A DNA stretch of 64,000 nt from Colwellia sp. (GTDB lineage: Bacteria > Pseudomonadota > Gammaproteobacteria > Enterobacterales > Alteromonadaceae), in assembly GCA_020630795.1 (NCBI GenBank), contig JAHDIK010000013.1, forward strand, positions 1 through 64,000. Reading direction: 5' to 3'. The number at the start of each line of letters is the position of its first letter. Position 1 is the first letter of the stretch. Below, piece after piece: positions 5,919-27,325 of the stretch. Under the pieces are notes generated by a model. It was not told where the DNA came from. It saw only the letters and a program-made list of their open reading frames with translations, and made no database searches. The translations under genes were made by a program, and so were the position numbers.

Positions 5919-7148
5919 CTAGTCAACAAAAGCACTTTTGAAAAACTTAAGTAAATCTAAATTAAATTCTTCCGGCTTAATACAGCTTTCAATTTGATCG
6001 TTGTATTTGGCTTTGCTTAGGTCAATTTCTTCCATTGCAATAACTTGGCTCAGCCTAGCGTTATAAAAAACACGAACAAAAGGCTTTAAGGGTTTGCTTT
6101 TGTTGAGTTGGCTAATTAACCCTATTTTCCCACTGGCTAGTTTTACTAAAGTTCCTACAGGGTAAATACCTAAGCATTGAATAAACTGTTCAACTAACTC
6201 AGCGTCATAACTTGTAGGTGACTCACTAATGAGTATTTTAAAGGCTTTTATAGGGTGCATACCTGCCTTGTAAACACGTTCAGCAGTCATAGCGTCGTAA
6301 CTATCTACTATTGCTATCATTCGCCCATATTGTGATATTTTTTCGCTAGAAAGCTGATTAGGGTAGCCCTTACCATCAATACGTTCATGATGCTCGCTTA
6401 CTACTTTCATCACAATATCAGGAATATTTGGTGTTTCTTTTAATGCTTCAACGCCAAAATTTACATGCATTTTCATCACTGTGTATTCTTCGTCAGTAAA
6501 GCGCCCAGGTTTATTGAGCACTTTATCTGGGATACGAACTTTACCAATGTCATGTAAAAAAGCGCCGAGCGCTAAGTCTTCCATAACGTTACGTTCAATA
6601 CCCAAGTGTTTACAAAAAATCGTCATCAATATTGATACGTTAAGCGAGTGTTCGACAAGGTAGTCATCTTTTATACGTAAACGAGACATGCACGATAACG
6701 CGTCTTGATTTCTAAAAATAGAATCAACAATAGCGTTAGTGCTTTCTTGAACGGCCTCAGTATCAATAACTTTATTAGATGTTATATCGTGTAATATTTT
6801 TTTCTGGAGAACTTTGGCGTTGTTATATAACTTATTGGCCTTTTTCATTTCACTATCAAGTGAAACTTTTGGTTCTTTGTTATCCGGTATTTCTGGCTCT
6901 TCTACAGTAGGCGTAACGTCTGTTGGTTCATTGGATTTGGTGCGAGAAGGATCGATAATGACATGCGTAACATTAGATTTTCGTAATTGAGTTATATTCG
7001 CTTCCTTTAAAATATAACCTTCAGATTTGATGCCAACGCCTTTTTTTTTGGTAATAAGCGAAAGTACATACATACCAATTTTTAGTTCACTTAATGTGAT
7101 TTTTTTCGAAGTTTCAGATTCTTTATTATTTGTTTTTGATACTGACAT
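5919..7148 (-). CDS. HD-GYP cyclic-di-GMP phosphodiesterase with DUF3391-type N-terminus
   Basis: A soluble 409-residue protein. The N-terminal segment (about 18-70, KITLSELKIGMYVLSL) looks like the DUF3391 domain that often precedes HD-GYP. The HD-GYP domain has H167, the H199-D200 pair in FLHDIGKVRIPDKVLNKPG, H253-H254 and the complete GYP triplet (261-263) in the sequence IDGKGYP. All key residues are present, so hydrolysis of cyclic di-GMP is expected. The stop lies 7 bases from the stop of the convergent GspAB-like gene. No sensory domain is visible. Confidence 0.9.
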   Translation of the reverse strand: MSVSKTNNKESETSKKITLSELKIGMYVLSLITKKKGVGIKSEGYILKEANITQLRKSNVTHVIIDPSRTKSNEPTDVTPTVEEPEIPDNKEPKVSLDSEMKKANKLYNNAKVLQKKILHDITSNKVIDTEAVQESTNAIVDSIFRNQDALSCMSRLRIKDDYLVEHSLNVSILMTIFCKHLGIERNVMEDLALGAFLHDIGKVRIPDKVLNKPGRFTDEEYTVMKMHVNFGVEALKETPNIPDIVMKVVSEHHERIDGKGYPNQLSSEKISQYGRMIAIVDSYDAMTAERVYKAGMHPIKAFKILISESPTSYDAELVEQFIQCLGIYPVGTLVKLASGKIGLISQLNKSKPLKPFVRVFYNARLSQVIAMEEIDLSKAKYNDQIESCIKPEEFNLDLLKFFKSAFVD

Positions 7149-7321
7149 TTATAATTCACTATTGTTGTTACGCGAAACAAGTTTCCATGTTTATTTACCC
7201 TTACTCAAAGTAGGGTATTACTTTAAATTATAGACAGAATTTACGGTGTTGCCACGAGAATATTTCGTGTTTTTCCAGACTTTCTTAGTATAAGTATATG
7301 GTAAGTTATTCATGTATAGAT

Positions 7322-7350
7322 ATAAAAAAGGGTAACCTAAGTTACCCTTT
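7322..7350 (-). terminator. Terminator of the leu operon
   Basis: A 10-bp perfect stem, AAAGGGTAAC (7327-7336) with GTTACCCTTT (7341-7350), and a CTAA loop. Read on the minus strand it is followed by a run of T, directly after leuD. Nearly the same stem recurs at 33283-33311 beyond tolC. Confidence 0.85.
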
Positions 7351-7367
7351 GTGACTAAATTTATGTG

Positions 7368-7964
7368 TTACGCCCAACTAGGTCGTTTAGCCTCATAGGC
7401 TTCAATTAAATCAATTTTGTTTAATGTCCAGCCTACGCTATCTACCCCTTCTGCCAAGCAATATTTGTGAAAATCGTTAAGTGGAAAACTAAATGTTAAG
7501 TCACCACATGATACCGTTTGAGTAGGTAAATCAACTGTAATGCTAATGTCGCTCTTTGAAGACGCTTCAAATAGCTGCTGCACTTCATCATCTGTTAGTT
7601 TTACAGGAACAATACCTATGTTTATACAGTTACCGTAGAAAATATCAGCGAAGCTTGGCGCGATTATTACAGTAAAACCGAATTCTTGAAGTGCCCACGG
7701 AGCATGCTCTCGGCTTGAACCGCAGCCAAAGTTTTCGCGTGTTAGTAAAATCGTTGCGCCTTGGTATTGAGGGTAGTTTAATACAAACTCTGGGTTGTCT
7801 TGTGTACCTTCAAAGTCTAAGTAGCGCCAGTCATGAAACAAGTGTTGTCCAAAACCTACGCGTTCAGTTTTTTGTAAAAACTGCTTAGGAATAATTTGGT
7901 CAGTGTCAACGTTAGCAAAATCTAACGGAGCAACTAACCCTGTGTGAGTAGTAAATTTTTCCAT
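7368..7964 (-). CDS. leuD: 3-isopropylmalate dehydratase small subunit
   Basis: The small (swivel-domain) subunit of isopropylmalate isomerase, which with LeuC converts 2-isopropylmalate to 3-isopropylmalate in leucine synthesis. The 198 residues match the bacterial LeuD length. Diagnostic stretches are [13 protein letters not shown] near the N-terminus and [15 protein letters not shown], the aconitase-family swivel signature. It is the last gene of leuABCD, starting 11 bases after leuC and followed by a strong terminator. Confidence 0.98.
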
Positions 7965-7975
7965 GGTTACATCTC

Positions 7976-9397
7976 CTATGCGTTAGATTTAGCGTTTAAG
8001 TCAACAAAGCGTGCTTCAATTGCTGCCGCTGCAGCAACTTCAGGGCTTACTAAGTGTGTACGACTACCGCGACCTTGACGGCCTTCGAAGTTTCGGTTTG
8101 ATGTAGAGGCACAACGGTCGCCTTCTTCTAAGCGGTCATCGTTCATGCCTAAACACATTGAACAACCCGGTAAACGCCATTCAAAGCCAGCGTCTATAAA
8201 TATTTGTGATAAACCTTCTTCTTCCGCTTGTGTTTTTACACGGTAAGATCCCGGAACTACGATGGCGTCTACATCTTTTGAAACTGTTTTACCTTGTTTA
8301 GCATAGTCGCTAACAACGCTCGCCGCAGCACGTAAATCTTCAATTCTAGAGTTAGTACAAGAACCAATAAATACTTTATTAACCGGCACTTCAGTTAATT
8401 TAGTGCCTGCTGTTAGCCCCATGTACTCTAATGCTTTAACACAAGACTCTTTCTCAACAGGGTCTGAAAAATCGTCAGGAGAAGGTACAACAGAGTCTAT
8501 CGAGGTTACTTGACCTGGTGTTGTTCCCCATGTCATTTGCGCTTTGATGTCTTCACCTTTAAGTGTTAACACTTCGTCAAACGTTGCGCCATCATCTGTT
8601 TTTAATGTTTTCCATTGTGCAACAGCTGCATCCCAGTCGTCTAATTTAGGCGCGTATTCTTTGTGTTGTAGGTAATCAAACGTTGTTTGGTCTGGTGCAA
8701 CTAAACCAGCTTTAGCACCAAACTCTATACTCATGTTACAAATGGTCATGCGTTCTTCCATGGTTAACGCTTCAATAGCTTCACCACAATATTCAACAAC
8801 AAAACCTGTTGCGCCAGCGCTACCTGTTTTACCGATAATCGCTAAAATAATATCTTTAGCGCTAATGCCTGTGCCAACTTTACCCGTAACTTCAATCTTC
8901 ATGGTTTTAGCTTTGTTTTGGCGCAACGTTTGTGTTGCAAGTACATGCTCAACTTCGGATGTACCAATACCAAATGCTAATGCACCAAATGCACCATGTG
9001 TAGCTGTATGAGAGTCACCACATACGATAATTTGACCTGGTTGAGTAATACCTAATTCAGGTCCCATTACGTGAACAATACCTTGGTTTTTGTGGCCCAT
9101 GCCAAACAATTTGATACCAAACTCTTCACAGTTCTTTTCTAGTGTACGAAGCTGATTTGCAGCGCCTTCACCAGCAGCATCTATTTCAACTGAACGTGTT
9201 GAAATATTATGATCCATTGTCGCAATAGTTTGCGCTGGTTTACGAACAGGGCGATTGTGAAACTTTAAGTTTGCAAATGCCTGTGGAGATGTCACTTCAT
9301 GTATTAAGTGACGATCAACATACAATAAAGGTGTTTCACCTTCTTTTTCTTCAACTAAATGCTGTTGGTATAATTTTTCGTATAAGGTAGTAGCCAT
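7976..9397 (-). CDS. leuC: 3-isopropylmalate dehydratase large subunit
   Basis: The 4Fe-4S-containing large subunit of isopropylmalate isomerase (473 residues, normal length). Cluster ligands are visible as the cysteine in [12 protein letters not shown] and the pair in [27 protein letters not shown] and [20 protein letters not shown] are further aconitase-family hallmarks. It lies 67 bases downstream of leuB and 11 upstream of leuD, consistent with one transcript from the attenuated leu promoter. Confidence 0.98.
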
Positions 9398-9464
9398 TAT
9401 TTAATCCTTACTATCTAATCTCACCGTGGAGTCTTGCCACACGATGATTTTAATCTGTTGAGTA

Positions 9465-10574
<1,110 letters not shown>

Positions 10575-19311: not shown

Positions 19312-20697
19312 ATGGCGGATAATATAATGTGGACACCAAAGCTAACGGATAATGGCGAGCCACTTTATTTACAGATAGTTGAAGCAATGGTGAGGGATAT
19401 TGCTAGCGGTACACTTGCCGTTGGGGAGAAACTACCACCTCAACGTCAACTCGCATGGCATTTAGACGTGAATTTAAGCACGGTAACCAAAGCTTTTACA
19501 GTTGCGACCAAGCGCCACCTTATTGCTGGTGAAGTTGGGCGAGGCACTTATATTTTGGGTCAAAGCAGCGAAGCCGAATTGTATAAGCTGAAACATAATC
19601 AAGCTTATGGATACAAAAATAGTTTCATCGATTTGAGTACACATATTCCTGCAACAAAGCCGAATGATAATGACTTAGACAACACGTTACAGGAGCTAAT
19701 GAAACGACCAACAGGGTTGTCTTCATGCCTTGAGTATTTATCGCCTCTTTCATTAAAAACCACTCAAATATCAGCGGCTAAATGGCTTGGTGAATTTGGC
19801 TATTTTATTCCTAGTGAAAATTGTTTAGTGACATCTACGGCTCAAAATGCACTTTTAGTGACTTTGCTCGCTACATGTAATCAAGATGATGTGGTTTTAG
19901 TAAGCGAACTCACTTTTCCTGGCATAAAAACCGTCGCAAAACAGCTTCGTTTAAAGTTGTACGGCGTTAAGTGTGACGAACAGGGGATTTTACCTGATGC
20001 ATTAGATTTAGCTATTCGCTCAACTGGAGCCACTGTATTAGTATTCGATCCATTACTACAAAACCCTACAGCGTCAATAATGGGAAAAGAGCGCGGCGCT
20101 AAAATTATAGAAGTAATACAAAAATATAAACTGTTGTTTATAGAAGAATATGTATTAGGGACTTTAACGAACTTTCCGCCTATCAGTACGAGTATTAAAG
20201 ACCAGTCCATTTTAATTACGAGTTTTGCAAAAGCCGTAAGCCCTGGAATTAGGTTTGCAGTTATTGCGAGTGAACACCCTGTAATTAACATGATTGCAAA
20301 AGATACTCATGCAACTAGTTGGCAGCTCAGTCCGCTAATGGCTGGAGTTGCGACTCACTGGATTTGTGGTGGTACAACAACCGAGCGTACGCATTGGCAA
20401 CGAGAGGAAATAAAAATAAGATTTGATTTGTTTGAACAAATATTTCCGGCGAGGCAATACCAACGAAATAAAGGGATTACACCGCATGTATGGTTGCCTG
20501 TAAATTGTGATGCTATGGAAGCTGCAGATACGTTAAGCGAGTTAGGCGTAGAAGTTGTGCCGTCGGCGTTCTTTGCGGTTAATCACCACTTCTCAGCTTT
20601 TATTCGTGTGAGTTTAACGGCAGCTGCTTCGAATAATCAGCTAAAAATTGCTTTGCAGATTATAAAAAATTCAGGGGTTGTGAGTAAAAAAGGTTAG
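19312..20697 (+). CDS. MocR-type GntR/aminotransferase transcriptional regulator
   Basis: A 461-residue fusion of an N-terminal GntR winged helix (about 15-85: GEPLYLQIVEAMVRDIASG, LPPQRQLAWHLDVNLSTVTKAF, GRGTYI) to a class-I aminotransferase-like domain. The PLP-binding lysine is present (K307 in SFAKAVSPGIRF). MocR proteins use bound PLP or PLP-amino acid adducts as signals and often regulate the adjacent divergent gene, here a PLP-dependent dehydratase 79 bases away. An alternative start is five codons in (MWTPKL). Its stop codon overlaps that of the convergent channel gene. Confidence 0.88.
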   Translation: MADNIMWTPKLTDNGEPLYLQIVEAMVRDIASGTLAVGEKLPPQRQLAWHLDVNLSTVTKAFTVATKRHLIAGEVGRGTYILGQSSEAELYKLKHNQAYGYKNSFIDLSTHIPATKPNDNDLDNTLQELMKRPTGLSSCLEYLSPLSLKTTQISAAKWLGEFGYFIPSENCLVTSTAQNALLVTLLATCNQDDVVLVSELTFPGIKTVAKQLRLKLYGVKCDEQGILPDALDLAIRSTGATVLVFDPLLQNPTASIMGKERGAKIIEVIQKYKLLFIEEYVLGTLTNFPPISTSIKDQSILITSFAKAVSPGIRFAVIASEHPVINMIAKDTHATSWQLSPLMAGVATHWICGGTTTERTHWQREEIKIRFDLFEQIFPARQYQRNKGITPHVWLPVNCDAMEAADTLSELGVEVVPSAFFAVNHHFSAFIRVSLTAAASNNQLKIALQIIKNSGVVSKKG

Positions 20698-21152
20698 TCT
20701 TTTTTTAACTCGTCAATTTTCTTTTCAAGCTCTAACAGTTTTGCGTAAATATTGGCATTTTGTTTACGCAATTCACGATTCTTAATATTTGTGTCTGCAA
20801 AACCGAAGAGTTTATTAGCAAATACTGCCCCTAATGTACCAAGTGTACCAACACCGAGAAGGAACATAGTATATACGGATATGCGACCCATTAAGGTTAC
20901 TGGGTATACATCACCAAAGCCTATGGTTGAAGCCGACATGACCATTAGCCATACCGCATCGCTATAAGTTTTTACTGGCGAATTACTGTGCTCTATTTCG
21001 AATATGTAAGCTACATGGCCTAATGACATTGTTAGAAATGTCATAACGAGGAGGAGAAAGAAAGATAATACAAAAAAGTTGTAATTTTTCACGCCATATT
21101 GGTCAATCGTATATAGGCGTGTTTTTTCCATAACTGATTCGATAACTAACAA
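20694..21152 (-). CDS. Two-TM potassium-channel-like protein with C-terminal coiled coil
   Basis: A 152-residue membrane protein with two hydrophobic helices (about 25-52 and 89-113) around a pore loop carrying the K+ selectivity filter TIGFGD (76-81). A charged coiled coil (about 122-152) follows instead of an RCK domain. The best start is a TTG with AGAGGA eight bases upstream; the first ATG is seven codons later and lacks a Shine-Dalgarno. It is the last gene of the PspA-type cluster. Channels of this kind recur near pspA/DUF350/polyamine genes in other bacteria, by my recollection. Stop codon overlaps that of the convergent MocR gene. Confidence 0.85.
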   Translation of the reverse strand: MLVIESVMEKTRLYTIDQYGVKNYNFFVLSFFLLLVMTFLTMSLGHVAYIFEIEHSNSPVKTYSDAVWLMVMSASTIGFGDVYPVTLMGRISVYTMFLLGVGTLGTLGAVFANKLFGFADTNIKNRELRKQNANIYAKLLELEKKIDELKKD

Positions 21153-21192: not shown

Positions 21193-21516
21193 TTAATCTT
21201 CTATATGCACGTGATTAATCAGCTCATCCATTAGTTTCTTTTTAATTTCTAACTGTTGATCTGGTTGTAAACTGTATTTTTTCGCAAGTACTTCATAATC
21301 TGCTGGCGCTAAGCTAACGGTTAAGCGAGGGCGCTTAGGACGTTTACTTGTGGGTAAACCCAGTATGTCTCGTATTTGATCAGATGGACTTAAACCTGCT
21401 TCAAGCGCTTGTTTGCGAATAGCTAACTGAACTTTTTCATCCATATCAAACGCAACTTGAACAGCTTTAACAGCTTTAACAGAGGATTCCCATTTTTCAG
21501 GTATTTTACGTGTCAC
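21193..21516 (-). CDS. Small conserved basic protein in the PspA cluster
   Basis: A 107-residue protein I do not recognise by name. The middle (VAFDMDEKVQLAIRKQALEAG, then LSPSDQIRDILGLP) looks like a ribbon-helix-helix-type strand plus two helices. A basic linker (SKRPKRPR) and a second similar unit (LTVSLAPADYEVLAKKYSL) follow. This suggests possible DNA binding, and it would be a candidate regulator for the palindromes found upstream in the cluster, but that is speculation. It starts three bases after the YjfK-like gene, so translation is probably coupled. Confidence 0.6.
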   Translation of the reverse strand: MTRKIPEKWESSVKAVKAVQVAFDMDEKVQLAIRKQALEAGLSPSDQIRDILGLPTSKRPKRPRLTVSLAPADYEVLAKKYSLQPDQQLEIKKKLMDELINHVHIED

Positions 21517-21519
21517 GAG

Positions 21520-22158
21520 TTAGCTTCCTGGATACATGTCGATAATATCTGTGGTTGGTCTAAATAGCGTTAAAAACACATCAGTATCGCCGTCAGGCCA
21601 TACTTCTATATCTATGCCTCTAGTATCGTCCTTATCAAATAACGCGTAAAGTTCGAACTGCTCGCCTGCGTCTGTTCCTTCATATGCTGATAGCGATTCT
21701 ACGCGATTATCTTTTCGGTGAAAATAGCCAACCTGAGCAAATGTTTGTTGTTGATATTGGTCGCTACTCCAGCCAGAAGTGTTTTCAACTTCTGATACTT
21801 TTTCAATAAAAGCATTACCAGGTTCGTCAAATATCGTGGAGAAACTCTCTAAATCAAACAAGCTTTCTACTTGGTGCTGTTCAACTTTTAGTGAAAATTT
21901 GAGGTAGGTTTCATCGTCAATATCCAGTGTTAAATATATTTGAATATTATTTGTGCTTTGTAAAACCCATTCTGTTTCGGTTTTATTTTCGTATTCATAA
22001 CAGTTAATTGCAGATACTTGAAATTCCTGTCCTCGCAATGTTTCGGGTAAACCAAAGCTGTCGCTAAGTACAATAATGTCATTCTTTTTAAGTTGATGAG
22101 CTTGCGTTAAAGAACGTTGCTTTTCTTCTTTTTTAAAAATGCTTTTCAAAAATCCCAT
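21520..22158 (-). CDS. YjfK-like cytoplasmic protein (DUF2491/DUF4178 type)
   Basis: About 212 residues from the ATG of MGFLKSIFKKEEK; the open frame extends 13 codons upstream but GGTGG lies just before this ATG. Position and length match yjfK in the E. coli yjfI-yjfJ-yjfK order (DUF2170, PspA, DUF2491). The N-terminal part (ECQ-poor, with TEWVLQS and IYLTLDIDDE) also resembles DUF4178 domains that are associated with PspA and spermidine-synthase genes. No catalytic motif or membrane segment is visible. I cannot separate these two family names without a profile search. Confidence 0.6.
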   Translation of the reverse strand: MGFLKSIFKKEEKQRSLTQAHQLKKNDIIVLSDSFGLPETLRGQEFQVSAINCYEYENKTETEWVLQSTNNIQIYLTLDIDDETYLKFSLKVEQHQVESLFDLESFSTIFDEPGNAFIEKVSEVENTSGWSSDQYQQQTFAQVGYFHRKDNRVESLSAYEGTDAGEQFELYALFDKDDTRGIDIEVWPDGDTDVFLTLFRPTTDIIDMYPGS

Positions 22159-22242
22159 TTTACCACCATGAAAATCGCTTGCTACAATAGGCAACAAGCG
22201 ATTTATTCTTTAATTAATTAGTTATTATGTTTGAGCAAACGC

Positions 22243-22932
22243 TTATTTTTGTTTAGCTTTCAAACGGTCTAACACTGAACTTGCGCTTGCATCACTAGCA
22301 CCGATACCAGCTTCTTTAAGCTTAGCTTCTAGTGAGTTATCAGAGTTTTCAGACTCTAAAACTTCAGCTGCTTTCATTTGATCATCAAACTTTTGTTGCT
22401 TAGCTTTAATACGCTCTAAAGAGTCTTTAGCGCTAAGTAGCTTAGAGTTACTTGATGAAAAGTTATCAGTAATAGCAGACGTTGCTTTTTGAACGCTGTC
22501 AGTCGTTTTAACCATTGATAACTGACGTTTGTATTCTGCAACTTGACGCTCACTCTTCTTAACAAGATCTTTTAAGCGGTTCGCGCTGCCTTCAAAGCTA
22601 TCTAATGATTGCTGAGAAGTCGCTAATTCACTTTCAAGTGCTGCAATTTTTTCTGCTACAGCAAGTGCTAACGCTTCATCACCTTTTTCTAAGGCTTGAA
22701 CGGCATACCCTTCATGTTCAGCGATTTCACGTTTAACGCGGTCTACTTCACGGCTTGAAGACATTTGTTGTGCCATTACGCCTGTAAGGTCACGTTTTGC
22801 TTTTGTTAGGTGGTTTTCTGCGTCTCGGATCTCTTGTTCAAAAATGCGTGTTGCATTTGAATCAACAATTGATTCGCCAACTTCAGATGCGCCACCACGA
22901 ATAGCGGTCATTATCTTTTTGAAAATACTCAT
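22243..22932 (-). CDS. PspA/IM30 family protein (YjfJ-like)
   Basis: A 229-residue, almost entirely helical coiled-coil protein starting MSIFKKIMTAIRGGASEVGES, the usual amphipathic helix of PspA/IM30. It continues into long heptad-rich helices (IFEQEIRDAENHLTKAKRDLTGVMAQ and beyond). PspA/IM30 proteins are ESCRT-III-related and coat damaged inner membranes. The neighbours (DUF2170 and a YjfK-like gene rather than pspBC) place it with YjfJ, not the classical phage-shock operon. Good Shine-Dalgarno (TAGGAG). Co-transcribed with the DUF2170 gene, 27 bases upstream. Confidence 0.9.
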   Translation of the reverse strand: MSIFKKIMTAIRGGASEVGESIVDSNATRIFEQEIRDAENHLTKAKRDLTGVMAQQMSSSREVDRVKREIAEHEGYAVQALEKGDEALALAVAEKIAALESELATSQQSLDSFEGSANRLKDLVKKSERQVAEYKRQLSMVKTTDSVQKATSAITDNFSSSNSKLLSAKDSLERIKAKQQKFDDQMKAAEVLESENSDNSLEAKLKEAGIGASDASASSVLDRLKAKQK

Positions 22933-22959: not shown

Positions 22960-23373
22960 TTAAATTAAATAGTCACTCATGTCATCGATAATTTCGATGG
23001 CGTTATTACTAAGAACAGCAAGTTCATGTTCTATGTCGTCGTATGTTGAATTGATAGATAATGCGCCAAAAATAACGTATTTATCACCAATTTTTGAAAA
23101 CGAAGATAGTGGCATTGGTATGTTCATTTCAAGCATGCTTTCATGCATGTCATGTACCTTGTCTGCTTTAACTTCTTCTGCACCCCATAAGTAGGTAATG
23201 CATAAAATTTGGTCATCAGTAACAGACACAAAAATAGGTAATTCTTCACGGTCTATTACAGAAATTTGTAACACGTCAACTTCACCTGAAATCGGTTGGC
23301 AATCAAAAACCATTCCCGTTTCTGAATTGTCTGCCATTGCATTCAAGTGGTTTGCTATCGTATGAATATTCAT
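22960..23373 (-). CDS. DUF2170 protein (YjfI-like)
   Basis: About 137 residues from the ATG of MNIHTIANHLN, which has AGGA five bases upstream; the frame is open four codons further, but that stretch contains the Shine-Dalgarno itself. Sequence and position immediately before pspA match YjfI (DUF2170), a small acidic cytoplasmic protein of unknown function. The alternating strand/helix pattern (VDVLQISVIDREELPIFVSV) suggests a compact alpha/beta fold. It is the first gene of a unit whose promoter region carries two copies of a perfect palindrome. Confidence 0.8.
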   Translation of the reverse strand: MNIHTIANHLNAMADNSETGMVFDCQPISGEVDVLQISVIDREELPIFVSVTDDQILCITYLWGAEEVKADKVHDMHESMLEMNIPMPLSSFSKIGDKYVIFGALSINSTYDDIEHELAVLSNNAIEIIDDMSDYLI

Positions 23374-23430
23374 GTTGTTCCTCATTCATGTTAATTCTTA
23401 GTAATCAGGCTTTTGGCCTTTTTGCTAATC

Positions 23431-23443
23431 GACATATTATGTC
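23431..23443. promoter_or_regulatory. Palindrome copy 1 (GACATATTATGTC)
   Basis: A perfect 13-bp inverted repeat between the DUF2170 gene (start 23373) and the candidate transcription start. It is the exact reverse complement of the sites at 23466 and 27310. Its centre is 35 bp from copy 2. Placed just downstream of the predicted start point, it fits a repressor site. Confidence 0.7.
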
Positions 23444-23452
23444 ACTGGGGTT

Positions 23453-23480
23453 AATTTAACATCTAGACATAATATGTCAA
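23453..23480 (-). promoter_or_regulatory. Candidate promoter of DUF2170-pspA unit
   Basis: On the minus strand TTGACA (23480-23475), a 16-bp spacer and TAAATT (23458-23453). The -35 hexamer is part of palindrome copy 2, so bound regulator would compete with or contact RNA polymerase. It is read by eye, not scored. Confidence 0.45.
23466..23478. promoter_or_regulatory. Palindrome copy 2 (GACATAATATGTC)
   Basis: A perfect 13-bp palindrome overlapping the candidate -35 box of the DUF2170-pspA promoter. It is identical to the copy at 27310-27322 upstream of the other half of the same cluster. Confidence 0.75.
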
Positions 23481-23549
23481 GTGCTGTTTTTGTTATTTTT
23501 TCATTAATATCGTTTTTAGTGTTTCAATATCCACTTAAAACTACTTACA

Positions 23550-25259
23550 TCATTGTAGATGAGAATTGTTAAGCCCTTGTTGATCTCGCCACGCTTCTTG
23601 ATGTAATTGATAAATGGCGTGACTGCCTAAGTAATTAACAGGGATATCTTCTTTGTCTTCATAAAAATTGTTTGGAAACTCAAAAGCATTTTTAATCATA
23701 GGTAGCGTTAACCAAAAATGCTCTACTGGTAAACGTTCTAATTTTTTGAGGCGATTAAGCGGGCTTGATCCCATTTTGCTGGCAATAGTCCAGCCCCATT
23801 CTCCGAAGCTCGGCACGTTATCGTGATATTGTTCAACAGAGGAAAATCCTGCCGCTTCCATGGTTTTTTGTACTGAAATAAACGAATCTTTCGCGTGGTA
23901 GGGGCTTGTCGATTGAATACCAATTAACCCGTCGCCTGCCAGAAGTTGTTTTAATCGTGCGTAAAAATTAACAGAATATAATTTGTTAAGATCAGGGTGG
24001 CTTGGGTCAGGTAAGTCGACAATAATAGCGTCGTAAACATCGCCTTTGGCTAGCAAGCTATCTATGGTTAGAAAGGCATCGCTTTTTAGTACGCTGACAC
24101 TTTTGTGAGTTAAACTTTGTTGGTTTAATTGTGTTATTTGTTTTGCCAGTGCTGTGGGAAGTTTTTCGTGGGGCTGAGTAAATATTTCAATAAGCTCTGC
24201 GTCTAAATCTATCAGCGTGACTTGTTCAGGCGACCACTGCAATACGTCTCGTAACGCTAAGCCGTCACCACCACCGATAATTAACACATTTTCTTGTCGA
24301 GCTGAACCTGCTAAAACAGGTGTTACAAGATAACTGTGATAAATAAATTCGTCAGATGATGAAAACTGTAAACGGCCATTAAGGTAAAAACTAATAACGT
24401 TAGCTTGATCGATTCCCATATGGCGTTGCGTAAAAGTTAAGTGTTGATATTTGGTTTTATCGGTGTAAACCACTTTGTCTAGATACAACAAGTTATTCAT
24501 GTTGTTTAGCCATGAATTACCTTGTTGGTAAATAACACTGATTAGTATAAAAAATCCTACGTGAATACCAACTAAGGTTTTTTTCCACGAGAGCCTGTCC
24601 CAGTAATAAGCAATAAAAATACTACCAACCACAAGGTTTAATGCTGCTGTTAACGCACTGGCTTTACTAATATCAATAGTTAATAGAAAGAGTACCCATA
24701 TTGCTGCGCCACAACCGGCTCCTACATAGTCTGCACCGTAAATTGTGCCTAAGTTATTTTTGAGATGTTTTTGATGTATTTCTTCTCGAATACGAGCAAT
24801 TAACGGAATTTCCATACCGATGAAAAAACCGAGTAATAAGCCAAAAAAGTAGGGGCTGTTAAACGCTAAAAAACTGAGTGTTTTAAAAATACCACCACGG
24901 GGAAGGGCATCTGGTGGTAATGAAAACATGTCAGAAAGTATATAAGGAAAGGTTTGAGTTAGCGCTATTAAGCCACCAATAATCAAAATTGACGTACTAC
25001 CCAATAACGCAATAATGAGCTCTAGCCACACAAAACCATTAAACGCGCAGGTAATTTTACGCGCGGCAAAGGCACCTAGCCCCATGGCAACAATCATTAG
25101 GCCGATCATTGCATAAATGGTGCTTTCCATCACACCTAATACTCTGCCAGCGTAATGTGACAGTAAATATTCGTATACCAAGCCACAGCCAGCAAGTATT
25201 GCCATGGTGAGTATGAGCAATACGTCGTTTACGAACAAAGAGCGTTTGGTTGATGTCAT
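23550..25259 (-). CDS. Membrane-embedded spermidine/spermine-synthase-like protein
   Basis: A 569-residue protein with an N-terminal membrane domain of about seven hydrophobic helices (residues 10-255) and a C-terminal SAM-binding Rossmann domain. The latter shows VLIIGGGDGLALRDVL (motif I), LIDLDAELIEIF, and YDAIIVDLPDPSHPDLNKLYS, the loop typical of polyamine aminopropyltransferases. Similar fused proteins accompany PspA and DUF350 genes in other bacteria. The reaction may be aminopropyl transfer, but the substrate is unproven. It is preceded by a terminator-like hairpin, so it may be partly uncoupled from the DUF350 gene upstream. Confidence 0.82.
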   Translation of the reverse strand: MTSTKRSLFVNDVLLILTMAILAGCGLVYEYLLSHYAGRVLGVMESTIYAMIGLMIVAMGLGAFAARKITCAFNGFVWLELIIALLGSTSILIIGGLIALTQTFPYILSDMFSLPPDALPRGGIFKTLSFLAFNSPYFFGLLLGFFIGMEIPLIARIREEIHQKHLKNNLGTIYGADYVGAGCGAAIWVLFLLTIDISKASALTAALNLVVGSIFIAYYWDRLSWKKTLVGIHVGFFILISVIYQQGNSWLNNMNNLLYLDKVVYTDKTKYQHLTFTQRHMGIDQANVISFYLNGRLQFSSSDEFIYHSYLVTPVLAGSARQENVLIIGGGDGLALRDVLQWSPEQVTLIDLDAELIEIFTQPHEKLPTALAKQITQLNQQSLTHKSVSVLKSDAFLTIDSLLAKGDVYDAIIVDLPDPSHPDLNKLYSVNFYARLKQLLAGDGLIGIQSTSPYHAKDSFISVQKTMEAAGFSSVEQYHDNVPSFGEWGWTIASKMGSSPLNRLKKLERLPVEHFWLTLPMIKNAFEFPNNFYEDKEDIPVNYLGSHAIYQLHQEAWRDQQGLNNSHLQ

Positions 25260-25290
25260 TAGGTAAAGTAACTTAATTGAGGGTATTGTG

Positions 25291-25333
25291 AAAAAAGCTG
25301 CTAAACAAATGAATTGAAGTGTTCAGCAGCTTT
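25291..25333 (-). terminator. Terminator-like hairpin between DUF350 and spermidine-synthase-like genes
   Basis: On the minus strand AAAGCTGCT (25333-25325) pairs with AGCAGCTTT (25302-25294) around a 22-nt loop, followed by six T. It lies within the cluster, 32 bases before the next gene. It may reduce read-through from the lipoprotein-DUF350 unit rather than end it fully. Confidence 0.55.
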
Positions 25334-25347
25334 GTCGATATGAAGTG

Positions 25348-26250
25348 TTAAGCCATTAAGCCCGTTAAAATTAATGCGATAGAAATACTGATAGCCATTT
25401 CTACACTTGCAACACCAATATTATGTTGCTGATCTACTTCTTCAACGAGGTTGATACCCATTAAAATAAGTTTCTTTGCGATCGTTGTTAGTAACCATAC
25501 TAAAACCGTCATGATTACACTAAACACTAACCAGCCCACTAGGTTAACAACTAAAGTATCAGGGTTGTAGGTTAAAAAGTAACTTGCCGCTGTAACAGCT
25601 AGGGCAGTACTTATTGCTTGTCCTGCGTAGCGAATTGCCAAAGCAACTTGCCCATCGGCAAAGGCCTCTTGCATGCAGTCACCCTGATTATTTTTCGCAT
25701 ATTGTTTTTCTTTTAGGCGAGTAACAAGTACTAACATGGCTTGCGATACAATAAAGCCAGCAGCAATGGCAACGAATGTACTGATGCTTAACCCATTCAC
25801 CCACAGTAAAACCGCACGAATAATTATTGCGGTAGCAATAGCTCCAGCCGCATCAACAATACCGACTGAAATATTATGTGCTTTAATTTGTTCTGTTTTG
25901 TTAATTTGGTTGAGTGCTATTCGGTCGTGAACCATACGACCAATTTTAATTAAAATTAAACCAAATAAACCGTAAGAAAGCATACCTATTGCTTCCATCA
26001 CGTAACTGTCAGCGGCTTCACCCGTTATTGCCCCTGTAAGCACAATCCCCATAGCGGCAACACTACCCGCTACGCTTACACCAAACGCAAAGTTGTCTTC
26101 TTTAGACAGCTCCTCAGTCGAGTTAACTTGAGCGGTAAAGCCTGAAATAAAACGCATTGCTCCCAGTAACAAAATGGCAATGGTAATATCGATGGCCAAA
26201 TAGATGAGTAAATCTTGGTTTAAGTGTGTTATGTCTATTATTGTATTCAT
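25348..26250 (-). CDS. Duplicated DUF350 membrane protein (YjfL-like)
   Basis: A 300-residue membrane protein with about eight hydrophobic helices, made of two similar halves. Each half has a helix pair around a conserved polar stretch (FAFGVSVAGSVAAMGIVLTG; ALAIRYAGQAISTALAVTAA), the signature of DUF350. E. coli YjfL carries a single DUF350 unit, so this is the double form. Function unknown; the family travels with PspA and polyamine-type enzymes. Good Shine-Dalgarno (AGGAA). It begins 23 bases after the lipoprotein gene. Confidence 0.82.
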   Translation of the reverse strand: MNTIIDITHLNQDLLIYLAIDITIAILLLGAMRFISGFTAQVNSTEELSKEDNFAFGVSVAGSVAAMGIVLTGAITGEAADSYVMEAIGMLSYGLFGLILIKIGRMVHDRIALNQINKTEQIKAHNISVGIVDAAGAIATAIIIRAVLLWVNGLSISTFVAIAAGFIVSQAMLVLVTRLKEKQYAKNNQGDCMQEAFADGQVALAIRYAGQAISTALAVTAASYFLTYNPDTLVVNLVGWLVFSVIMTVLVWLLTTIAKKLILMGINLVEEVDQQHNIGVASVEMAISISIALILTGLMA

Positions 26251-26273
26251 TATTATTCCTATTCTGCTACTCG

Positions 26274-27263
26274 TTATTTGCCGCGTTTAAAGCCACGAGA
26301 AGTAGAGCTTGAGCTATTTCTGAAACTGGCGTTTTTTGATGAATTTTTTGCGTACGAACTTTTTGTGGGGCTAGTAGGTTTGAACTTACTGGCCTTAGTA
26401 AACTTATTAGCACTTGCTTGTGCAGTTCTACTTTGACTTGAAAGTGAAGAAGAACCTGTACGATTTTTACTGTAAGCGCTAGTAAATTTTTGCCCTCTGC
26501 TTTGAAACGACTTTCGTGTTCGATTTTCAAGCGTGGTTTGTTTTTTAAGCTGCGATGGCGAGCTGTAACGCTTTCGTCCGTAGTCGTTGTAATAACTATA
26601 ATTTCGGTATCGTCCCCAGTCATTATAGTAAACTCTACGTGACCCAAATAAGTCACCCATTAGCGAATACATACCATACCAAGCCCAGAACGACATGCCA
26701 TTGCTACCCGTAGACCATTGACCATAATTGGGGTTGCCGATAAGTTGTTCGCCTGTGCCAAAATCTTGAGCGTTATTTACTTGCGCACTTTGGCTTTTAG
26801 ACATGGCATTGATACGAGGCAGCAGCCCGTCAGACATATCGGCGAGTACATTTAGCGGATCGCTTAATGCGTCTGAATACAATACAGGATCAGCAGCTTG
26901 GTAAATGTTAAGTAATTCGTCATATCGTGCCTGTGAATCAGCAAACATATTCGGCTGAGTTTTAACGGTATTAATTCGGTCTAGTAGCGCTAGGTACATA
27001 GGCCCACTAGTGGTTGCGTCTTTTTTAAACTCATTGACTAATGGCGCAAGATCAGGTTTTAAATCAATAACTTTTGTTGCGTATTGATTAATAAGTGTAG
27101 CGTTTCTTATTTGACCCGCGTTAAGTCCGTTACCGAGTTGTTCAACACGTTGTTCGGATATTTGAATTTGCTGTTCGATTTGATCTTGTAACGGATCGCC
27201 ACAGCCGATCAAGATCAAACTTACGAGAATTAGTATTACTTTTAAGTGGTGCATTCCTGCCAT
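26274..27263 (-). CDS. Lipoprotein with low-complexity Ser/Lys-rich tail
   Basis: About 329 residues, starting at the ATG with GAGGA four to five bases upstream; the frame is open 17 codons further. The signal peptide ends in a lipobox (LIGC) with the lipidated cysteine at residue 21. The next about 150 residues are helical. A Tyr/Arg/Asn-rich segment (about 205-235) follows, and the last about 95 residues are almost only S, T, K, A, R and N, giving a highly basic tail. I recognise no domain. It is the first gene of the cluster and is divergent from glnE, with a palindrome in its promoter region. Confidence 0.75.
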   Translation of the reverse strand: MAGMHHLKVILILVSLILIGCGDPLQDQIEQQIQISEQRVEQLGNGLNAGQIRNATLINQYATKVIDLKPDLAPLVNEFKKDATTSGPMYLALLDRINTVKTQPNMFADSQARYDELLNIYQAADPVLYSDALSDPLNVLADMSDGLLPRINAMSKSQSAQVNNAQDFGTGEQLIGNPNYGQWSTGSNGMSFWAWYGMYSLMGDLFGSRRVYYNDWGRYRNYSYYNDYGRKRYSSPSQLKKQTTLENRTRKSFQSRGQKFTSAYSKNRTGSSSLSSQSRTAQASANKFTKASKFKPTSPTKSSYAKNSSKNASFRNSSSSTSRGFKRGK

Positions 27264-27295
27264 AGTGTCCTCAAAAATGCTATGGTTATCATTTA

Positions 27296-27325
27296 TTAAT
27301 ATCATTCTTGACATAATATGTCCAA
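27296..27325 (-). promoter_or_regulatory. Candidate promoter of the lipoprotein-DUF350 unit
   Basis: On the minus strand TTGGAC (27325-27320), an 18-bp spacer and TATTAA (27301-27296), 33 bases before the lipoprotein start codon. The -35 hexamer overlaps the palindrome. On the plus strand TTGACA (27309-27314) could in the same way serve glnE. Confidence 0.4.
27310..27322. promoter_or_regulatory. Palindrome copy 3 (GACATAATATGTC)
   Basis: A perfect 13-bp palindrome in the 127-bp space between the divergent lipoprotein gene and glnE. It is identical to the site at 23466-23478. The flanks extend the symmetry slightly (TTGACA...TGTCCAA). It overlaps candidate -35 boxes on both strands. Confidence 0.75.

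Follow-up and report, generated by a model that had tools for sequence, protein, structure and literature searches.

The PspF-sigma-54 phage-shock regulon controls pspA. In Bacillus subtilis, yuaF, yqeZ and yqfA are NfeD and flotillin genes. The account of sigma-W in PMC3498285 places pspA-ydjGHI, yuaF-yuaG(floT)-yuaI and yqeZ-yqfA-yqfB of that species under joint control, and a physical PspA-SPFH link via YdjI is described there in PMC8581546. Ravi et al. 2024 (PMC11237479) set out a PspA-DUF2170 (CesT/Tir)-polyamine operon class that in some cases ends with a gene for a ribbon-helix-helix (RHH) transcription factor, and suppose that PspA from another locus may be the partner of scattered flotillin-YqiJ operons. 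Here we analyzed a stretch of 64,000 nucleotides from Colwellia sp. (the window), in which a 13-bp palindrome, GACATAWTATGTC, lies before two operons with genes of this class.

The window shares with the described class genes for DUF2170, PspA, DUF4178, DUF350, a lipoprotein and an aminopropyltransferase, whereas the survey's section on that class gives no DNA site, target list or RHH function (PMC11237479). The sigma-W regulon is the nearest working parallel, with one regulator over PspA and NfeD/flotillin operons. It differs in its use of an extracytoplasmic function sigma factor, where we find a palindromic operator and a candidate RHH protein, and the targets here include NhaA, HtpX, DUF350 and polyamine genes. 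As in the PspF-sigma-54 regulon, a pspA-pspC unit here has a sigma-54-like promoter, which stands near a palindrome; the difference is that pspF here has a separate locus, and its contig lacks the palindrome. The candidate regulator, a predicted double strand-helix-helix chain, resembles RHH repressors (MetJ, Arc, CopG) and tandem RHH proteins (TraY, AvtR). To our knowledge, no broad chromosomal regulon for membrane stress has been described for a tandem RHH protein. A search of the open-access literature, supplements excluded, found no report of the site or the regulon; there, the 13-mer, its complement and two consensus spellings occurred in one plant paper only. The system is new as a regulon and known as a kind of regulator.

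We consider it likely from sequence comparison that GACATAWTATGTC serves as operator in a membrane-stress regulon and that an RHH protein encoded at 21193-21516 is the regulator. The operator is real and sharply defined, the proposed regulon is broad and concerned with membrane stress, and its candidate regulator is well supported. PspA, NfeD/SPFH, flotillin-like, HtpX and polyamine/DUF350 modules have so far been studied separately, and a shared operator would join them. It would also make the idea of flotillin-YqiJ/PspA cooperation directly testable, with a candidate regulator named. Control by the RHH protein, which is likely, would unite dispersed membrane-protection genes of marine bacteria in one network.

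The palindrome and its target genes

The window contains exact copies of GACATAWTATGTC at 23431-23443, 23466-23478 and 27310-27322, the first two spaced 35 bp start to start. This bears out the original prediction, which had placed three copies there and no other in the window; the next best matches have two mismatches (25868, 52117). The description as a 'perfect' palindrome is true of the arms only, because the 13-mer, with two 6-base arms flanking a central A/T, is of odd length. With up to three mismatches, copies in the window are at chance level (24 found versus 21.9 expected). From the dinucleotide make-up of the window, the exact 13-mer is expected by chance 0.002 times per 64 kb and 0.13 times per genome (3.91 Mb). 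The whole genome holds 10 exact copies against this 0.13, and a single copy with one mismatch versus ~5.4 expected. The reversed word, used as a control, has no exact copy in the same genome and 3 places at up to one mismatch.

The other copies are few and non-random: seven more stand at six other promoters, mostly of membrane-stress genes. This sequence pattern supports, and extends beyond the window, the earlier suggestion that one dimeric regulator joins both halves of the window cluster as a regulon. Conservation in relatives, also at stake in that suggestion, was found in many genera. One sample for this was a set of named loci, namely 80 of the 301 relatives of the RHH protein, from Colwellia, Thalassotalea, Cognaticolwellia, Litorilituus and further genera. 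Three exact sites are present in 75 of these loci, two in 4 and none in 1 (Zobellella), and the reversed word is absent from all 80. The paired sites are spaced 36 bp (53 loci), 35 bp (21), 37 bp (4) or 39 bp (1).

To place the sites genome-wide, we used the 40 nearest genomes, the Colwellia genome included. The exact word is all-or-none in this set: 17 genomes have 2-10 copies and 23 have zero, and the reversed word has no copy in any of the 40. In the 17 motif genomes, 82 of 101 sites precede one of ten recurrent gene groups (single-linkage BLAST clusters), mostly of membrane-stress genes. Open reading frames (ORFs) near the sites came from a simple longest-first script, which missed small genes and set some starts too far upstream. 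Family models confirmed one htpX and one SPFH among the groups, which are as follows.

DUF2170-pspA: 30 sites in 16 genomes
lipoprotein-DUF350: 10 sites in 10 genomes
pspA-pspC: 9 sites in 9 genomes
NfeD-SPFH: 8 sites in 8 genomes
nhaA: 8 sites in 8 genomes
htpX: 6 sites in 6 genomes
YidC-like: 4 sites in 2 genomes
NfeD/flotillin-like: 3 sites in 3 genomes
another SPFH group: 2 sites in 2 genomes
SPFH without NfeD: 2 sites in 2 genomes

In a later test on five genomes outside the 17, 11 of 12 site places with loci adjoin recurrent groups and 1 of 12 adjoins none; here a pair was counted once, one of the 11 is a weak match (28% identity), and four further sites without a locus were not counted.

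It is scarcely credible that these copies arose by chance or are left over from a mobile repeat. In the NfeD/flotillin-like group, pairing does continue past the palindrome (3 sites, on average 9.3 more paired bases in a run), which makes it part of a longer inverted repeat. However, the flanks of the core are not common between sites, and symmetry beyond the core is near chance in most groups (~4/15, by our own arithmetic). Copy numbers far above expectation, the absence of the reversed word and the finding that the same gene groups bear the site in different families also count against this reading.

The candidate regulator

The 107-aa RHH protein is encoded in the operon behind the paired sites, and its fold is the only DNA-binding fold recognized or predicted among the products of the window's two operons. 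Where the original prediction called the regulator as yet unknown, there is now a strong candidate within the same cluster. Its gene is present in 18 of the 40 genomes: in 17/17 with the motif and in 1/23 motif-free genomes (G033), which has two variant motif copies at the same place. DUF2170 is encoded in 27/40 genomes, and the 9/9 that lack the RHH gene also lack the motif.

We extended the comparison to 247 genomes of the order: 77 carry the RHH gene, and 74 contain one exact copy or more. At least two exact copies occur in 56/77 genomes with the RHH gene versus 2/170 without (Fisher p 3e-35). Because the genomes are related, this value is purely descriptive and the counts overstate independence, a point against our reading. 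In total, 286 exact copies fall in genomes with the gene versus 17 in genomes without it; 11 genomes without it have a single copy. Among genomes with DUF2170 and no RHH gene, 1/29 has at least two copies. In G131 (at least two copies, no RHH gene found, 88% complete), the contig breaks inside the DUF4178-like gene, just before the expected place of the RHH gene. In G104, which is without the RHH gene, 0/2 sites lie by recurrent groups, and these copies look like chance.

The 21 RHH-bearing genomes with fewer than two exact copies comprise 17 of family f11 and 4 of family f25. In all 17 f11 genomes DUF2170 is preceded by two variant sites, TTGACATATAATGnC and GACATTWAATGTC, and the -10 is unchanged; in GACATTWAATGTC the inner bases of both arms are altered together. 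This variant occurs once in 7 and twice in 1 of the 8 f11 genomes scanned, and in 0/7 others. The f11 regulator looks local because GACATTWAATGTC is found only once or twice per genome. In the 4 f25 genomes and in Zobellella (L261), GACTTATTATGTC or its complement stands directly before DUF2170, and in G047, the only f25 genome examined for this, the single exact copy precedes htpX. Three f25 genomes (G047, G106, G121) have two DUF2170 genes each, one beside the RHH gene.

Could a different DNA-binding protein, encoded elsewhere, bind the site while the RHH gene merely travels with the operon? We regard this as quite improbable. P0001, a protein with a helix-turn-helix (HTH) domain (PF01381) and hydrophobic stretches, is encoded directly before one site, and PspF is present in 15/17 motif genomes. 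Neither follows the motif: relatives of P0001 spanning at least 200 residues occur in 6/40 genomes, 4/17 with the motif and 2/23 others, while PspF is above its cut-off in 17/23 motif-free genomes and not in the motif-bearing G024 and G039. Both were dropped as binders for this reason, P0001 having first been favored for its position. G142, the sole f7 genome of the sample in which the RHH gene or an exact copy occurs, also argues against mere travel. It keeps the RHH gene and the sites together despite changed neighbors, in an operon (L331:2457-6935) of DUF2170, PspA, RHH, NfeD/YqiJ-like and flotillin-like genes behind an exact pair; DUF350, aminopropyltransferase and DUF4178 are missing from the stretch, by eye. 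Targets that are separate in the Colwellia genome are thus one operon with the regulator gene in G142.

The RHH protein is our preferred regulator, and several observations weigh against it and its regulon. G045 carries the RHH gene in a different operon, and the surrounding 11 kb contain no site at up to two mismatches; a site pair precedes pspA elsewhere in that genome. The two exact copies of G039, where DUF2170 is at a contig edge, adjoin unrelated genes. Nineteen of the 101 sites (7 genomes) precede genes outside the ten recurrent groups, including an ion channel (PF00520) and, by eye, a carbonic anhydrase and an efflux subunit. The candidates compared for co-occurrence were the RHH gene, P0001 relatives and PspF. 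As to the fold, no curated family matched the 107-aa protein at its cut-off, the AlphaFold2 model has a middling pLDDT of 70.4, and Foldseek alone gave no match at E 0.001 or better.

That model, built from 37 rows (the window protein plus 36 taken from the 80 named loci, with L255, which has a stop codon, and L234 left out), shows strand-helix-helix twice in one chain. The realigned Foldseek list is headed by F-plasmid relaxosome chains (Z 7.4), which we take to be TraY, single-chain Arc (6.9) and AvtR (6.3), followed by DndE, with CopG and FitA lower; the best Z is modest (<8), and the weight lies on the leading rows being RHH proteins. Sub-threshold family matches were NikA-like, RHH_1, FitA-like_RHH and RelB/DinJ, plus weak matches to unrelated families, and a PDB sequence search gave 4 weak matches, none of them an RHH protein. 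Residues Q20, R62 and R64, on or beside the two strands, do not vary among the 18 relatives aligned. The 107-aa protein is predicted on this model to be a tandem RHH protein.

Site position and probable mode of control

The window's promoters have TTGACA-type -35 and extended -10 elements. The operators, promoter elements and genes of the two operons are as follows.

23466-23478: operator a, DUF2170-pspA operon; exact 13-mer, at the same place in the 75 named loci with three exact sites
23475-23480, minus strand: -35 TTGACA overlapping operator a, from the sequence; TT precedes the site in 100% of the 75 loci
23453-23458, minus strand: extended -10 TGTTAAATT, hexamer TAAATT, 16 bp from the -35; TG.TAAATT conserved in the 75 loci
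23431-23443: operator b, between the promoter and the DUF2170 start; exact 13-mer, pair spacing 35-39 bp in 79/80 named loci
27310-27322: operator of the lipoprotein-DUF350-aminopropyltransferase operon; exact 13-mer, consensus TAGACATAWTATGTCa..aaTG.TAtTAaT in the 75 loci
27319-27324, minus strand: -35-like TGGACA (TTGGAC in the original prediction) overlapping that operator, from the sequence
27296-27301, minus strand: extended -10 TGATATTAA, hexamer TATTAA, 17 bp from the -35; TG.TAtTAaT in the 75 loci
22960-23385, minus strand: DUF2170 gene (PF09938, 132.8 bits), start probably 23373
22243-22932, minus strand: PspA of the yjfJ type (PF04012, 142.8 bits), far under the canonical PspA cut-off
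21520-22197, minus strand: DUF4178-like gene (PF13785, 21.1 bits, below the cut-off of 25)
21193-21516, minus strand: 107-aa predicted tandem RHH protein, the proposed regulator by fold prediction and co-occurrence with the motif
20694-21152, minus strand: ion channel (PF07885), probably the last gene of the operon, judging by strand and spacing
26274-27314, minus strand: lipoprotein gene, no Pfam match, real start probably 27263 (lipobox and start by eye)
25348-26250, minus strand: DUF350 membrane protein (PF03994)
23550-25259, minus strand: membrane-bound polyamine aminopropyltransferase (PF01564; NF002956, 585 bits, above cut-off)

The longest lipoprotein ORF begins within the operator; with the real start probably at 27263, automatic annotation may be off by ~50 bp.

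Across the 75 loci the upstream-site consensus is cTTGACATAWTATGTCa.g.TG.TAAATT, that is, a -35 inside the operator, 16 bp and an extended -10. The lipoprotein site was taken as the first of the three sites per locus, which is nearer in a few Thalassotalea/Thalassomonas loci. Both conserved promoters are oriented toward their own operon. A copy had been proposed to overlap a -35 in each promoter; this is so at 23466 (TTGACA) and 27310 (TGGACA or TTGGAC), and the copy at 23431 overlaps no operon -35. It had also been suggested that glnE may share the site. We dropped glnE as a target, as the conserved promoter elements face the lipoprotein operon and have no conserved counterpart toward glnE.

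At the 101 sites of the motif genomes, TTGACA is formed toward the gene at 48, of which 18 have a mirrored pair, and a -10-like hexamer lies inside the site with a TTG -35 at 16-18 bp at 12. Core-promoter-like overlap of either type is found at 58 sites. The remaining 43 show neither, and for these repression by promoter cover is not indicated. These data fit a repressor at many promoters, but give no rule for all.

The pspA-pspC unit is laid out differently. In 9/9 cases the site is followed, 81-84 bp on, by the start of a sigma-54-like promoter (TTGGCACGTAGCTTGTA at the unit on contig C12 of the Colwellia genome), and no such promoter lies within 350 bp of any of the 65 sites of six other groups. 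At two mismatches the sigma-54 consensus used missed this genome's own pspF-pspA locus (one candidate at three). By the same consensus, no sigma-54-like promoter at up to two mismatches lies near 20-28 kb of the window, nor is there a pspF gene in the window's cluster. The genome has one match above the PspF cut-off, on contig C22 beside its own pspA, and C22 is without the palindrome. With a sigma-54-like promoter near the site and a separate pspF-pspA locus, the pspA-pspC unit may respond to both systems.

The enhancer-like distance at all nine pspA-pspC palindromes, together with the 43 sites free of promoter overlap, would suit an RHH protein that acts as an activator, or as a PspF/sigma-54 co-factor at some promoters. 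We think this unlikely, since sites at the RHH protein's own operon and elsewhere cover TTGACA or the -10, near-consensus promoters need no activator, and operator b lies downstream of the promoter.

Repression by the RHH protein is proposed because many operators overlap the -35 or -10 of sigma-70-type promoters. We infer that two RHH molecules, each an internal pseudo-dimer, would bind the two arms, whose centers are 8 bp apart, as are those of met boxes. Bound protein would exclude RNA polymerase, also at its own operon, which would give negative feedback. Membrane damage, or a polyamine or ion change, might release the repressor. Release would then raise DUF2170-PspA, DUF350-polyamine, NfeD/SPFH, flotillin-like scaffold, NhaA and YidC-like insertase units, and HtpX in relatives. 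At the canonical pspA-pspC unit, the operator ahead of the sigma-54-like promoter could gate PspF control.

More tentatively, the system could be a second phage-shock network, a possibility we hold open without favoring it. In such a network, the tandem RHH repressor would sense the membrane via its operon partners (DUF2170, PspA, or polyamine or ion products) and merge with PspF-sigma-54 by occupying the enhancer region of pspA-pspC. It would have begun as a self-regulating operon (1-2 sites, the state of families f2 and f11) and expanded into a global regulon with 5-10 sites, whose operators hardly vary. A series from a self-regulating operon only to 5-10 sites would show a local repressor becoming global. 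In Pseudomonas aeruginosa, the passages on the DUF2170 protein BacA report that its loss raises partner proteins, and mention no RHH protein alongside it (PMC10948618). A link of the regulator to its operon partners is suggested because BacA loss raises these proteins.

Other sites and neighboring genes

Beyond the window, the Colwellia genome has sites at the following units, where names ending in '-like' rest on weak matches or on inspection by eye.

YidC/Oxa1-family gene (PF02096): site pair 32 bp apart upstream
DUF2059 gene, contig C8 (L013 around 7011): single site upstream
97-aa ORF, canonical PspA gene (TIGR02977 above cut-off) and PspC gene (PF04024), contig C12: site upstream
NfeD-like gene (26.5 bits versus a cut-off of 29.1) and two SPFH-type genes (Band_7 in the one scanned), contig C14
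nhaA (PF06965): site upstream
NfeD/YqiJ-like and flotillin-like pair: site upstream, with a Zn_ribbon_TFIIB gene (PF13453) on the opposite side

The flotillin-like protein scored 22 bits of 700 against NCBIfam FloT. We propose the YidC-like insertase, the DUF2059 protein, NhaA and ion channels as new members of the regulon. The DUF2059 protein is without a known membrane-stress link and could be one such member.

P0001 is a 232-aa XRE-type HTH protein (L015:6217-6915, contig C14), a possible membrane-bound regulator encoded before the NfeD-SPFH unit. In the palindrome-bearing pspA-pspC unit, a small secreted-looking ORF (~93-114 aa) precedes pspA (L014:1685-1978). Similar small ORFs stand before pspA in G003, G005, G009, G010, G015 and G023, with no Pfam match in the one scanned.

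Exact sites outside the recurrent groups are found at L341 (G115), at L083, L086 and L087 (G038) and at L074-L081 (G034). By eye, the neighbors at L341 and in G038 and G034 are peptidase-like, hydrolase-like, an efflux subunit and large lipoprotein-like proteins. A TetR-type gene, also assigned by eye, lies near the flotillin-like unit (L017:4929-5519). One operator separates Zn-ribbon TFIIB-type from NfeD/flotillin-like genes, which are arranged back to back (L017:6178-6726 and 7022-9710; L112 around 5120). This shared operator extends to a long inverted repeat, resembling two mirrored promoters with a common site.

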